64,000 nucleotides of DNA from an uncultured Acidobacteriia bacterium (GTDB taxonomy: Bacteria; Acidobacteriota; Terriglobia; Bryobacterales; Bryobacteraceae): contig CAIYDY010000316.1 in NCBI GenBank assembly GCA_903925015.1, forward strand, positions 1 through 64,000. The letters are read 5' to 3'. Shown here piece by piece: positions 14,184-17,004 of the stretch (position 1 is its first letter; each line of letters opens with the position of its first letter). The notes below the pieces were generated by a model, which saw only the letters and a program-made list of their open reading frames with translations, did not search any database and was not told the origin of the DNA. Both the position numbers and the translations under genes were made by a program.

Positions 14184-14507
14184 TCAAAGGTCGACAGTCT
14201 CGCCCAGCTGTTCGCCGATCACATCCCCCATCAACTGCAGCAAACTGCGGCCATCGGGCAGTTCGAACGCGGATGAGGCCGGATTCCAATCCAGCTTGAA
14301 GCTCTTCACGCGGGCCGAGACCCAAATCTGGTGGACGGGTGAGTTCGGGCTAACCACAAACTTGGCCGGCGGGTCGTCGAACTCAACCGCCAAAGCCCCT
14401 TCCTTGCTATCGACATCGAAATCGAAATCCTCGGAGGTCCGTTCCAAGGCCCGGCGGAGGGTATCCATCGCGCCGTCGCAAGCTGTCCGAAATTGTTGGT
14501 CGTCCAT
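14184..14507 (-). CDS. cyaY: Iron donor protein CyaY (bacterial frataxin)
   Basis: 107 aa, the normal CyaY length, using the ATG at 14507 (MDDQQFRTACDGAMDTL). Conserved features are an acidic first helix (TSEDFDFDVDSKEG), the beta-sheet signature HQIWVSARVKSFKLDW and the terminal FELPDGRSLLQLMGDVIGEQ. Frataxin binds Fe2+/Fe3+ and modulates iron-sulfur cluster assembly on IscS/IscU. It lies 8 bp after the NRAMP gene and 19 bp before the RraA-like gene, probably in one transcript; no isc genes are nearby. A longer upstream frame exists but would overlap the transporter. Confidence 0.85.
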   Translation of the reverse strand: MDDQQFRTACDGAMDTLRRALERTSEDFDFDVDSKEGALAVEFDDPPAKFVVSPNSPVHQIWVSARVKSFKLDWNPASSAFELPDGRSLLQLMGDVIGEQLGETVDL

Positions 14508-14515
14508 AGTAGTCC

Positions 14516-15757
14516 TTACTCTCCACGGAGGGATATGCCAGTCAGCGCCAGGGTCATCCCGATCACGACGATGGCCGTGACCCAAGCCACGGCGTTATAC
14601 AAGGGTGGATTCACCCACTCCTTCATCAGCCCCTTCTTATTGACGAGGATGATCATAAAGATGAGAATGAACGGCAGCAGCATCCCGTTCAGCACCTGGG
14701 ACAGCAGGATCATCCTTACCATCGGGAAATTCGGCACCAGGACCACCCCGGCCCCAACCACGATCAACAGGGTGTAGAGCCAATAGAAGATCGGTGCTTC
14801 CTTCCAGGTGCGGCTCACGCCCGATTCAAAGCCCAACCCCTCGCACACCGAGTATGCAGTGGAGAGCGGCAGAATGCAGGCGGCGAACACCGAGGCGTTC
14901 AGCAACCCGGCGCTGAACAGCAGAAACGCATACTGGCCGAAGGGCTTGAAGGCAAGCGCGGCCTCGCTCGCGTCCTTGATGTCCGTCGGATGGCCCCGGT
15001 AGGCCCCGGCGCAGGCCACGATGATGAAGAACGCGATCACGGAGGTCATCACGCAACCGACGATCACCTCAACCCGCGATTCCCGGTACTCCTTGGCCGT
15101 AATTCCCTTCTCCACGACCGCAGCTTGCAGATAGAACTGCATCCAGGGCGCGATCGTGGTCCCAACCATCGCGATCAACATCGTGATGTAGCCGCCGTCC
15201 AGCATCAAGGTGGGTCGAATGCTGGTGATCAGGGCCTCGTGCCAGTCCGGCTTGACCAGAAATCCGGCGATTACGTAGGAGATGTAGATCACGCAGGCGA
15301 ACAGGAAGATCTTCTCGACGCTGGCGTAGTTCCCCTTCACGGCGAGAAACCAGACTAGGACGCCGGCCAGCGGCACCGAAATGTATTTGGAGACGCCAAA
15401 CAAGTCCAGCGCGGTGGCTACACCGGCGAACTCGGCCACGATATTGGTGAAGTTCGCCATCACCAGCAGGAGCATGATGCCGAAGGTGATTCGTAAGCCG
15501 AACTCCTCGCGGATCAAATCCGAAAGACCCTTGCCTGTGACGGCCCCCATCCGGGAACACATCTCCTGGGTAACAATCAGCGCCACCGTAATCGGCAGCA
15601 GCGTCCACAACGGCAGGTACAGCCAGCGCGCGCCGGCTTGCGAGTAGGTATAGATGCCGCCGGAATCGTTGTCGACAACGGCGGTGATGAAGCCCGGCCC
15701 CAGCACAGCCAGGAACACGAAAAAATGGCGCTTGAGGCGGGCGAGCAGATCTCTCAT
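14516..15757 (-). CDS. NRAMP-related divalent cation transporter, possibly Mg2+ (NRMT-like)
   Basis: 413 aa, about 11 transmembrane helices. Against canonical NRAMP/MntH, the TM1 DPGN motif reads D31-S-G-G34 (in VVDNDSGGIY), keeping only the Asp, and the TM6 MPHN motif reads APWM (in TTIAPWMQFY), so the soft methionine ligand and the Asn are lost. Loss of the Met is the hallmark of NRAMP-related Mg2+ transporters (NRMT). The gene overlaps the MgtE-N/CBS gene by ATGA, which supports Mg2+; the cyaY gene downstream would fit Fe2+ or Mn2+. I favour Mg2+ with moderate certainty. Family assignment is firm; substrate is inferred. Confidence 0.85.
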   Translation of the reverse strand: MRDLLARLKRHFFVFLAVLGPGFITAVVDNDSGGIYTYSQAGARWLYLPLWTLLPITVALIVTQEMCSRMGAVTGKGLSDLIREEFGLRITFGIMLLLVMANFTNIVAEFAGVATALDLFGVSKYISVPLAGVLVWFLAVKGNYASVEKIFLFACVIYISYVIAGFLVKPDWHEALITSIRPTLMLDGGYITMLIAMVGTTIAPWMQFYLQAAVVEKGITAKEYRESRVEVIVGCVMTSVIAFFIIVACAGAYRGHPTDIKDASEAALAFKPFGQYAFLLFSAGLLNASVFAACILPLSTAYSVCEGLGFESGVSRTWKEAPIFYWLYTLLIVVGAGVVLVPNFPMVRMILLSQVLNGMLLPFILIFMIILVNKKGLMKEWVNPPLYNAVAWVTAIVVIGMTLALTGISLRGE

Positions 15758-17004
15758 TTCTTCTTCCTCAAGACAGTAATCACATCGTCCGCCGTAATGA
15801 CCCCGGCCAAGGTGCCGTCCTTTTCGAGGACCGGGAGGGCCAGCAGATTGTACTTGTCAAACAATTCCGTGACTCGGCGCTCCTTCTCCTGCGGAGCGGT
15901 GGAGATCAGCCGCTCGTATGCCAGTTCGCGCAGCTTGGTACCCCCATCGGCCAGAAAGAGGCGGGCAAGCGGGACGGCCGCCGTGATCCGTCCATCGGGA
16001 CTTTCCAGAAACAGCAGGTGGGTGTTCTCGAGCAGGTCTTCGTGGGTGCGCAGTTGGACCATCGCCGCATCCAGCGTCATGTCCTCCGGCAGCACAATGG
16101 CTTCCGTGTTCATCATGCCGCCTGCAGTGTGTTCGTCATATTCGAGAAGCTCGCGGACATCCTCCTGCTCCTCTTCCATCTCTTCGAGAATTTCCTCGGC
16201 GGATTCGTCGGCCAAGTCATAGAGGGCGTCGGCGGCCTGGTCGGGCGACATTTCCTCAACGATGTCCGCCGCGACCTCGGGCTCGAGCGCCTCCAGAATG
16301 CTGGCCTGCATTTTCGGATCGATCTCCGATAGTGCCTCGGCCGCAACCTCGCTATCAATGGTGCCCATGATGGCCTCACGGTCGGCCGGGCCGAGCTCCT
16401 CCATGATGTCCGCCAAATCGGCGGGGTGGAGCTTTTCCAACTTTTCGTTGGAAATGTTGAGACGGAGGCGGCGAAGGGGGTCCGACTCCAGGATGTTGCA
16501 GAAATCCCAGCTGATCGAATTGGGCGAGATCGGTTGCTGCACCCGGCGGACGAAGGCGCTCGGCAGGACTCCCTGCACCAATCGGCGGAAAATGCTGCGG
16601 AGGCCGATATCGACTTCCATGACGGACAGCGAATCCCGGTCGTCCTTGCGGATTTCGAAGGTAACGTCGTTTACGCGGACGACCTTGCGACCGTTGACGT
16701 CGATGATCTGCTGGTCCAACAAGTCGCGCTGGATGCGGAGCATGTACTCGTCCGAATGGTAGGGGTACAAGCGCTCGTTGGAGAGCTGTATCCCCTTTTC
16801 CAGTGAGATGGAGGTGATTTGGTCGTAGCGGATGGAGAGCCAGGCGCCGCCGTTGCCAACCAGGAAACGGTCCACGCGGGAAGGGTGGATGAGGGGAACG
16901 ATGGCAGCATCCTTCACACGTCCGATACGCCTGTGTTTCAGGTCGTATACGGGCATGCCGATCAATTCGGTGAAAAAGAGGAAGGAGAAGTTTTCCGCTG
17001 TCAT
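15754..17004 (-). CDS. Soluble MgtE-N/CBS regulatory protein with PRC-barrel domains
   Basis: 416 aa with no transmembrane segment. Domains: two PRC-barrel-like segments (about 8-75 and 95-135), an MgtE N-domain of superhelical repeats (about 185-290, with the blocks LHPADLADIMEELGPADRE and EALEPEVAADIVEEMSPDQA), and a CBS pair (about 294-416, starting HTAGGMMNTEAIVLPEDMT). In true MgtE the N and CBS domains sense Mg2+ and gate the attached channel; here the channel part is absent and the next gene encodes an NRAMP-type transporter in a 4-bp overlap. The simplest reading is a detached Mg2+ sensor for that transporter. Confidence 0.85.
   Translation of the reverse strand: MTAENFSFLFFTELIGMPVYDLKHRRIGRVKDAAIVPLIHPSRVDRFLVGNGGAWLSIRYDQITSISLEKGIQLSNERLYPYHSDEYMLRIQRDLLDQQIIDVNGRKVVRVNDVTFEIRKDDRDSLSVMEVDIGLRSIFRRLVQGVLPSAFVRRVQQPISPNSISWDFCNILESDPLRRLRLNISNEKLEKLHPADLADIMEELGPADREAIMGTIDSEVAAEALSEIDPKMQASILEALEPEVAADIVEEMSPDQAADALYDLADESAEEILEEMEEEQEDVRELLEYDEHTAGGMMNTEAIVLPEDMTLDAAMVQLRTHEDLLENTHLLFLESPDGRITAAVPLARLFLADGGTKLRELAYERLISTAPQEKERRVTELFDKYNLLALPVLEKDGTLAGVITADDVITVLRKKK

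Follow-up and report, generated by a model that had tools for sequence, protein, structure and literature searches.

A conserved Mg2+-type NRAMP module in Acidobacteriota with an MgtE-like soluble partner as its putative gate

Results

Two overlapping genes encode an MgtE-like protein and an NRAMP-family transporter

The window analysed here is a stretch of 64,000 nucleotides from a soil acidobacterium, an uncultured Acidobacteriia bacterium of the Bryobacteraceae (assembly GCA_903925015.1, contig CAIYDY010000316.1, positions 1 to 64,000 of the forward strand). As a preliminary description of this DNA had reported, it carries two reading frames that overlap by an ATGA; both lie on the minus strand. 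The features of the locus are listed below, with the evidence for each in brackets.

15754–17004, minus strand: putative Mg2+ sensor or soluble partner, 416 residues, ATG start (open reading frame list, Pfam, AlphaFold, fold match)
16783–16989, minus strand: PRC barrel 1, residues about 6–74 (PF05239; beta-rich segment in the model)
16459–16734, minus strand: predicted second PRC-like barrel, residues about 91–182 (alignment, model)
16132–16431, minus strand: MgtE_N superhelix, residues 192–291, holding E223, D255 and D259 (PF03448, E 1e-23; ligand mapping)
15766–16122, minus strand: CBS1–CBS2 pair, residues about 295–413 (PF00571; MgtE alignment)
15754–15757, minus strand: ATGA overlap of 4 bases between the partner stop and the transporter start (sequence)
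14516–15757, minus strand: NRMT-type NRAMP transporter, 413 residues, ATG start (PF01566; match to EleNRMT, 7qia; TM of the model)
15656–15667, minus strand: TM1 site, D31-S-G-G34, DxxG (sequence, alignment)
15149–15160, minus strand: TM6 site, T200-T-I-A203, TxxA, followed by P-W-M (sequence, alignment)
14696–14698, minus strand: TM10 glutamine Q354, equivalent to Gln379 of EleNRMT (invariant in 31 sequences)
14184–14507, minus strand: frataxin/CyaY-like gene (PF01491)

The frataxin/CyaY-like gene starts 8 bases past the transporter stop codon and is possibly co-transcribed with the transporter. We considered it as a conserved third gene of the module and rejected it, since just 3 of the 80 named loci related to this one have it beside the transporter. 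An Rfam search upstream of the pair gave no match to an M-box or any other riboswitch, and a scan of the locus for promoters and terminators gave nothing above chance level.

The soluble partner resembles a detached MgtE cytoplasmic domain

The upstream gene product had been described as the MgtE_N and CBS domains of MgtE, fused to PRC-barrel segments and separated from the channel, and the domain searches bear this out. Pfam matches comprise MgtE_N, CBS and a PRC barrel (E 1e-7), and Pfam and profile searches found the MgtE channel domain (PF01769) neither in this protein nor in the window genome. In an AlphaFold model built with 41 homologues (mean pLDDT 89.5), two beta-rich segments precede the MgtE_N superhelix and the CBS pair, and the best solved fold matches of the model are the MgtE cytosolic domains 5x9g and 2yvy. 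Pfam marks PRC in 34 of the 41 homologues, and in the window protein it marks only the first barrel; judging by its repeat pattern and predicted strands, the second segment is probably also a PRC-like barrel. It is the most conserved stretch of the N-terminal half, with D102, V111, D113, R140 and W166 invariant across the aligned homologues. Among the accessible papers, none combined the terms ‘PRC-barrel’ and ‘MgtE’.

In Thermus MgtE, Mg4 is liganded by D91 and D247, Mg5 by D226 and D250, Mg6 by D95 and Mg7 by E59, and the Mg2 and Mg3 ligands are the plug-helix residues E258 and D259 (PMC5882242). The window partner is about 30% identical to the T. thermophilus cytoplasmic domain and retains the Mg4, Mg6 and Mg7 positions: E59, D91, D95 and D247 align with E223, D255, D259 and D407. 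Unlike MgtE, however, it has two PRC-type barrels in front, no plug helix and no channel, and both Mg5 ligands are replaced (D226 by N386 and D250 by T410). The residues corresponding to E258 and D259 of MgtE are missing: the protein stops 3 residues past CBS2, all 41 homologues stop 2–13 residues past it, and in the alignment to MgtE a plug helix is absent from every one of them. Most residues of MgtE that contact ATP (PMC5529423) are also replaced in the window partner, with Y170, R187, D188, N203 and F227 all changed.

The position of MgtE D95 (D259 of the window partner) is invariant in all 31 near homologues of the partner, those of clade 1. The two Mg4 positions (MgtE D91 and D247) tend to covary among partner relatives, with D/D the commonest state (61 proteins) and G/Q found in 14. 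Joint change of this kind is expected if the two residues still meet, although shared ancestry could also yield it. A Mg2+-driven closing of the N domain on the CBS pair is therefore possible. The plug helix, through which MgtE passes the signal on, is missing; the relay would have to differ from that of MgtE, and the conserved second barrel would be the best candidate for the relay surface.

The transporter is an NRMT by closest relative, signature and phylogeny

The downstream gene product matches the Nramp family (PF01566) with an E value of 2e-87. Among solved structures the nearest match is EleNRMT of Eggerthella lenta (7qia, 7qji), with an E value of 3e-107 against 2e-21 for the next best, and the model of the window protein fits EleNRMT with a TM of 0.89–0.91 at about 44% identity. 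The NRMT signature pairs a DxxG motif in helix 1 with TxxA/T in helix 6 (PMC8806188). In the window protein, D31-S-G-G stands for the canonical DPGN and T200-T-I-A-P-W-M for A-x-x-M-P-H; the motifs had thus been read correctly as DSGG for DPGN and APWM for MPHN. The tryptophan after the TM6 proline and the TM10 glutamine are likewise shared with EleNRMT, and a quick tree groups the two proteins apart from canonical NRAMPs (SH-aLRT 94). On the basis of closest relative, signature and tree, we assign the sequence to the NRMTs (NRAMP-related Mg2+ transporters).

Comparison with canonical NRAMP/MntH proteins (DraNramp, ScaDMT) qualifies the earlier statement that the protein lacks transition-metal ligands. 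The selective TM1 Asn and TM6 Met are lost (to Gly and Ala, respectively), as is the TM6b His (to Trp), but the metal-site Asp (D31) and the TM10 Gln (Q354) are retained, as is the LeuT-type fold. EleNRMT carries Mg2+ and Mn2+, but not Ca2+, and does so without proton coupling (PMC8806188); it was characterised in the absence of a partner protein.

Partner and transporter always occur together

We surveyed 149 acidobacterial genomes for full-length matches to the partner and for transporters with the DxxG-TxxA site. A genome that is 67% complete (G136), in which a truncated clade-2 transporter lies at the end of a contig, was left out of the count. The two sets coincide fully: 41 genomes have both proteins, and none has only one. 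The two genes lie close together on one strand in 33 of the 41 and are unlinked in the other 8 (on separate contigs or with 200 kb between them). A family-wide search identified three further genomes, all Terriglobales, without a close transporter match, and these also have no partner; both proteins are present in the 16 other genomes examined. That the two occur and disappear together without exception, including in genomes where the genes are unlinked, strongly supports the conclusion that the partner is functionally tied to the transporter.

The same arrangement recurs more widely: both genes are close together on one strand, within the fetched flank, in 60 of the 80 named related loci. With the 33 of 41 genomes above, this is far from a chance arrangement. 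Loci with the pair occur in Bryobacterales, Terriglobales, Geobacteraceae and Omnitrophota; the nearest relatives are in Bryobacterales, and the window is accordingly assigned to that order. The partner gene lies upstream of the transporter in the clade nearest the window, and downstream of it in a second NRMT-like clade of 33–37% identity (L065–L068 and L074–L079). The pairing has thus persisted although the gene order was reversed. NRAMPs whose binding site differs (DPGN/MPH, DDDPSG, GPGT) lack a neighbouring partner gene.

Several variants were seen. Partner and transporter are separated by a glycosyltransferase gene in several Terriglobales (for example, L168:3952-5001), with short overlaps with the transporter gene kept; we read this gene as an insertion rather than as part of the module. 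A long open frame in one genome (G145), considered as a single-chain fusion of partner and transporter, contains two separate genes. An NRAMP-like protein of the window organism's own genome (L064, G000:C309:50403-51632) and ten relatives form a separate group that has DDDPSG in TM1, SPY in TM6 and Ala for the TM10 Gln, and is without an MgtE-like partner. Other NRAMP-like sequences close to the second NRMT clade carry the unusual TM1 motifs DNDAGA (L069, L071) or ENDGPS (L073, L085) and also have no partner nearby.

The module replaces MgtE

Five of the 41 module genomes encode the MgtE channel domain, compared with 80 of the 108 others. Counted by family, as presence in most members, it is found in 0 of 15 module families and 42 of 49 others; since the genomes are related, genome-level p-values are inflated by shared ancestry and are not to be read literally. 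Exclusion is also seen within families: one (f25) has the module in one of its genomes and MgtE in the other, and in another (f21) the sole module-less genome has MgtE. Of the three module-less Terriglobales genomes, none has MgtE and two have CorA. Across the 149 genomes, we found no depletion of CorA in those with the module.

Of the 23 genomes that lack both CorA and MgtE, 17 have the module, and 12 of the 149 have the module but no CorA, MgtE or MgtA above the curated cut-off; the MgtA search is informative only above that cut-off, weaker matches being other P-type ATPases. The window genome has neither MgtE nor CorA, and one good MgtA-type ATPase. It also has a canonical DPGN/MPHN NRAMP, which can serve Mn2+/Fe2+. 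The open frame of that protein (L001, G000:C135), of about 625–703 residues, suggests a C-terminal extension.

This correlation is what one would see if the module performed the task of MgtE. The description of the transporter as an NRAMP of Mg2+ type is thus supported by NRMT membership, the DxxG-TxxA signature and the replacement of MgtE. Since the partner is obligate and the pair replaces MgtE, Mg2+ is the likeliest substrate, and we infer that it is the main one in the window organism.

Relation to previously described pairs

Neither the gene pairing nor the idea of Mg2+ feedback is new. According to Shin et al. 2014, most NrmT genes adjoin a gene for a homologue of the MgtE cytoplasmic domain, and feedback regulation was proposed there (PMC4072509). 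What is new here is the obligate co-occurrence and co-loss of the pair and its replacement of MgtE. The Acidobacterium capsulatum pair fully rescued a B. subtilis Mn2+ uptake mutant but gave partial or weak Mg2+ rescue, with growth confined to low millimolar Mg2+; the partner added no effect to that of the transporter on Mg2+ growth (PMC4072509). The pairs described in that study (Clostridium acetobutylicum Ca_c0685; A. capsulatum ACP2976-2977) belong to the same two families as the window pair and are likewise adjacent and in the same order; PRC barrels, present in the window partner, go unmentioned in the accessible text of that paper. The window pair also differs in having no M-box.

One of the surveyed genomes (G162), which we take to be A. 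capsulatum ATCC 51196, has the partner gene next to the transporter gene. The transporter is 58% identical to that of the window, with DPNG in TM1 instead of DSGG, a variant found in only 5 of 112 relatives. The partner has S/H at the Mg4 positions, where MgtE and the window partner have D/D. Since the presumed A. capsulatum pair differs in both respects, the Mn2+ result may not transfer to the window pair. We can only speculate that DPNG, which still keeps DxxG, may go with a different selectivity. This genome has no MgtE, CorA or MgtA above the cut-off and has a strong canonical NRAMP; a Mg2+ role would therefore fit the genome better.

Discussion

We propose that the pair is an NRMT Mg2+-uptake module with a dedicated MgtE_N-CBS-PRC cytoplasmic partner that lowers uptake at high Mg2+, a reading to which we give even weight for and against. 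The NRAMP-fold protein would import Mg2+, and probably some Mn2+, through the widened DxxG-TxxA site, which would take the ion partly hydrated and, as in EleNRMT, might work without proton coupling. When cytosolic Mg2+ is high, the ion would most likely bridge the N domain and CBS pair of the partner (D255–D407, with D259 and E223), and the bridged dimer would compact. The compacted partner would then contact the transporter, probably by the second PRC barrel, and uptake would fall. Points that speak against this reading are the A. capsulatum complementation results, the lack of an M-box, the missing plug helix with its Mg2 and Mg3 ligands, the replaced Mg5 and ATP-site residues, and the finding that CorA is no rarer in module genomes.

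A different view is that the module mainly takes up Mn2+ and that the partner responds to Mn2+ or to divalent ions in general, in line with what Shin et al. concluded from the A. capsulatum pair. The A. capsulatum NrmT complements a B. subtilis Mn2+ transport mutant, its Mg2+ rescue is weak (PMC4072509), and Mn2+ transport is retained both in EcoDMT binding-site mutants and in EleNRMT (PMC8806188). Replacement of MgtE across families, however, argues against this view. So do the features of the presumed A. capsulatum genome: its rare DPNG and S/H residues contrast with DSGG and D/D in the window, and it combines a canonical NRAMP with the absence of MgtE, CorA and MgtA over the cut-off. We consider a chiefly Mn2+-importing module improbable. 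It is far less probable still that the genes are neighbours by accident and their products act independently, an idea already disfavoured: a glycosyltransferase gene intervenes, or the genes are far apart, in several Terriglobales, but co-occurrence in 41 of 41 genomes, co-absence in the rest of the 149, co-loss in three more and opposite gene orders in two clades all speak for a link.

The more serious challenge concerns the partner. The transporter may carry Mg2+ while the partner is not a Mg2+ gate but an assembly, membrane-anchoring or chaperone factor, its MgtE_N and CBS domains serving as scaffold or nucleotide sensor. Consistent with such a role, the plug helix is absent from all 41 homologues, the Mg4 pair is lost in many Terriglobales, the ATP site is poorly kept, conservation within the N-terminal half is highest in the second PRC barrel, and EleNRMT (PMC8806188) and the C. 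acetobutylicum NrmT (PMC4072509) transport Mg2+ without a partner. However, the invariance of D259 in 31 clade-1 homologues and the predominance of D/D at Mg4 are more easily reconciled with a Mg2+ gate, and we regard a non-gating partner as unlikely, though by a lesser degree than a Mn2+ module.

The proposal that an NRAMP has acquired the Mg2+ gate of MgtE therefore stands in part. Co-occurrence and co-loss tie the partner to the transporter, but gating itself is only plausible, since there is no plug helix, only part of the ligands is kept, and the one experiment on an acidobacterial pair saw no effect of the partner on growth with Mg2+ (PMC4072509). The preliminary description was right on the anatomy and probably on the metal, and went beyond the evidence on gating. 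Returning to the reading we prefer, its wider form is one that we hold tentatively and at somewhat less than even confidence: that a channel-derived Mg2+ gate acts in trans on a secondary transporter of unrelated fold, that PRC barrels docking on the NRAMP, rather than a plug helix, relay the Mg2+-driven compaction of the MgtE_N-CBS dimer, and that in many Acidobacteriota the module has come to fill the place of MgtE. What we describe is a conserved Mg2+-type NRAMP module in which the partner is a putative gate.

Across 149 acidobacterial genomes, the survey makes the MgtE-like protein beside NrmT an obligate genomic partner. The DPNG and Mg4 differences provide a sequence reason why the one experiment on an acidobacterial pair may be unrepresentative. 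If the partner gates the transporter, a sensory domain would have moved between unrelated transporter folds.
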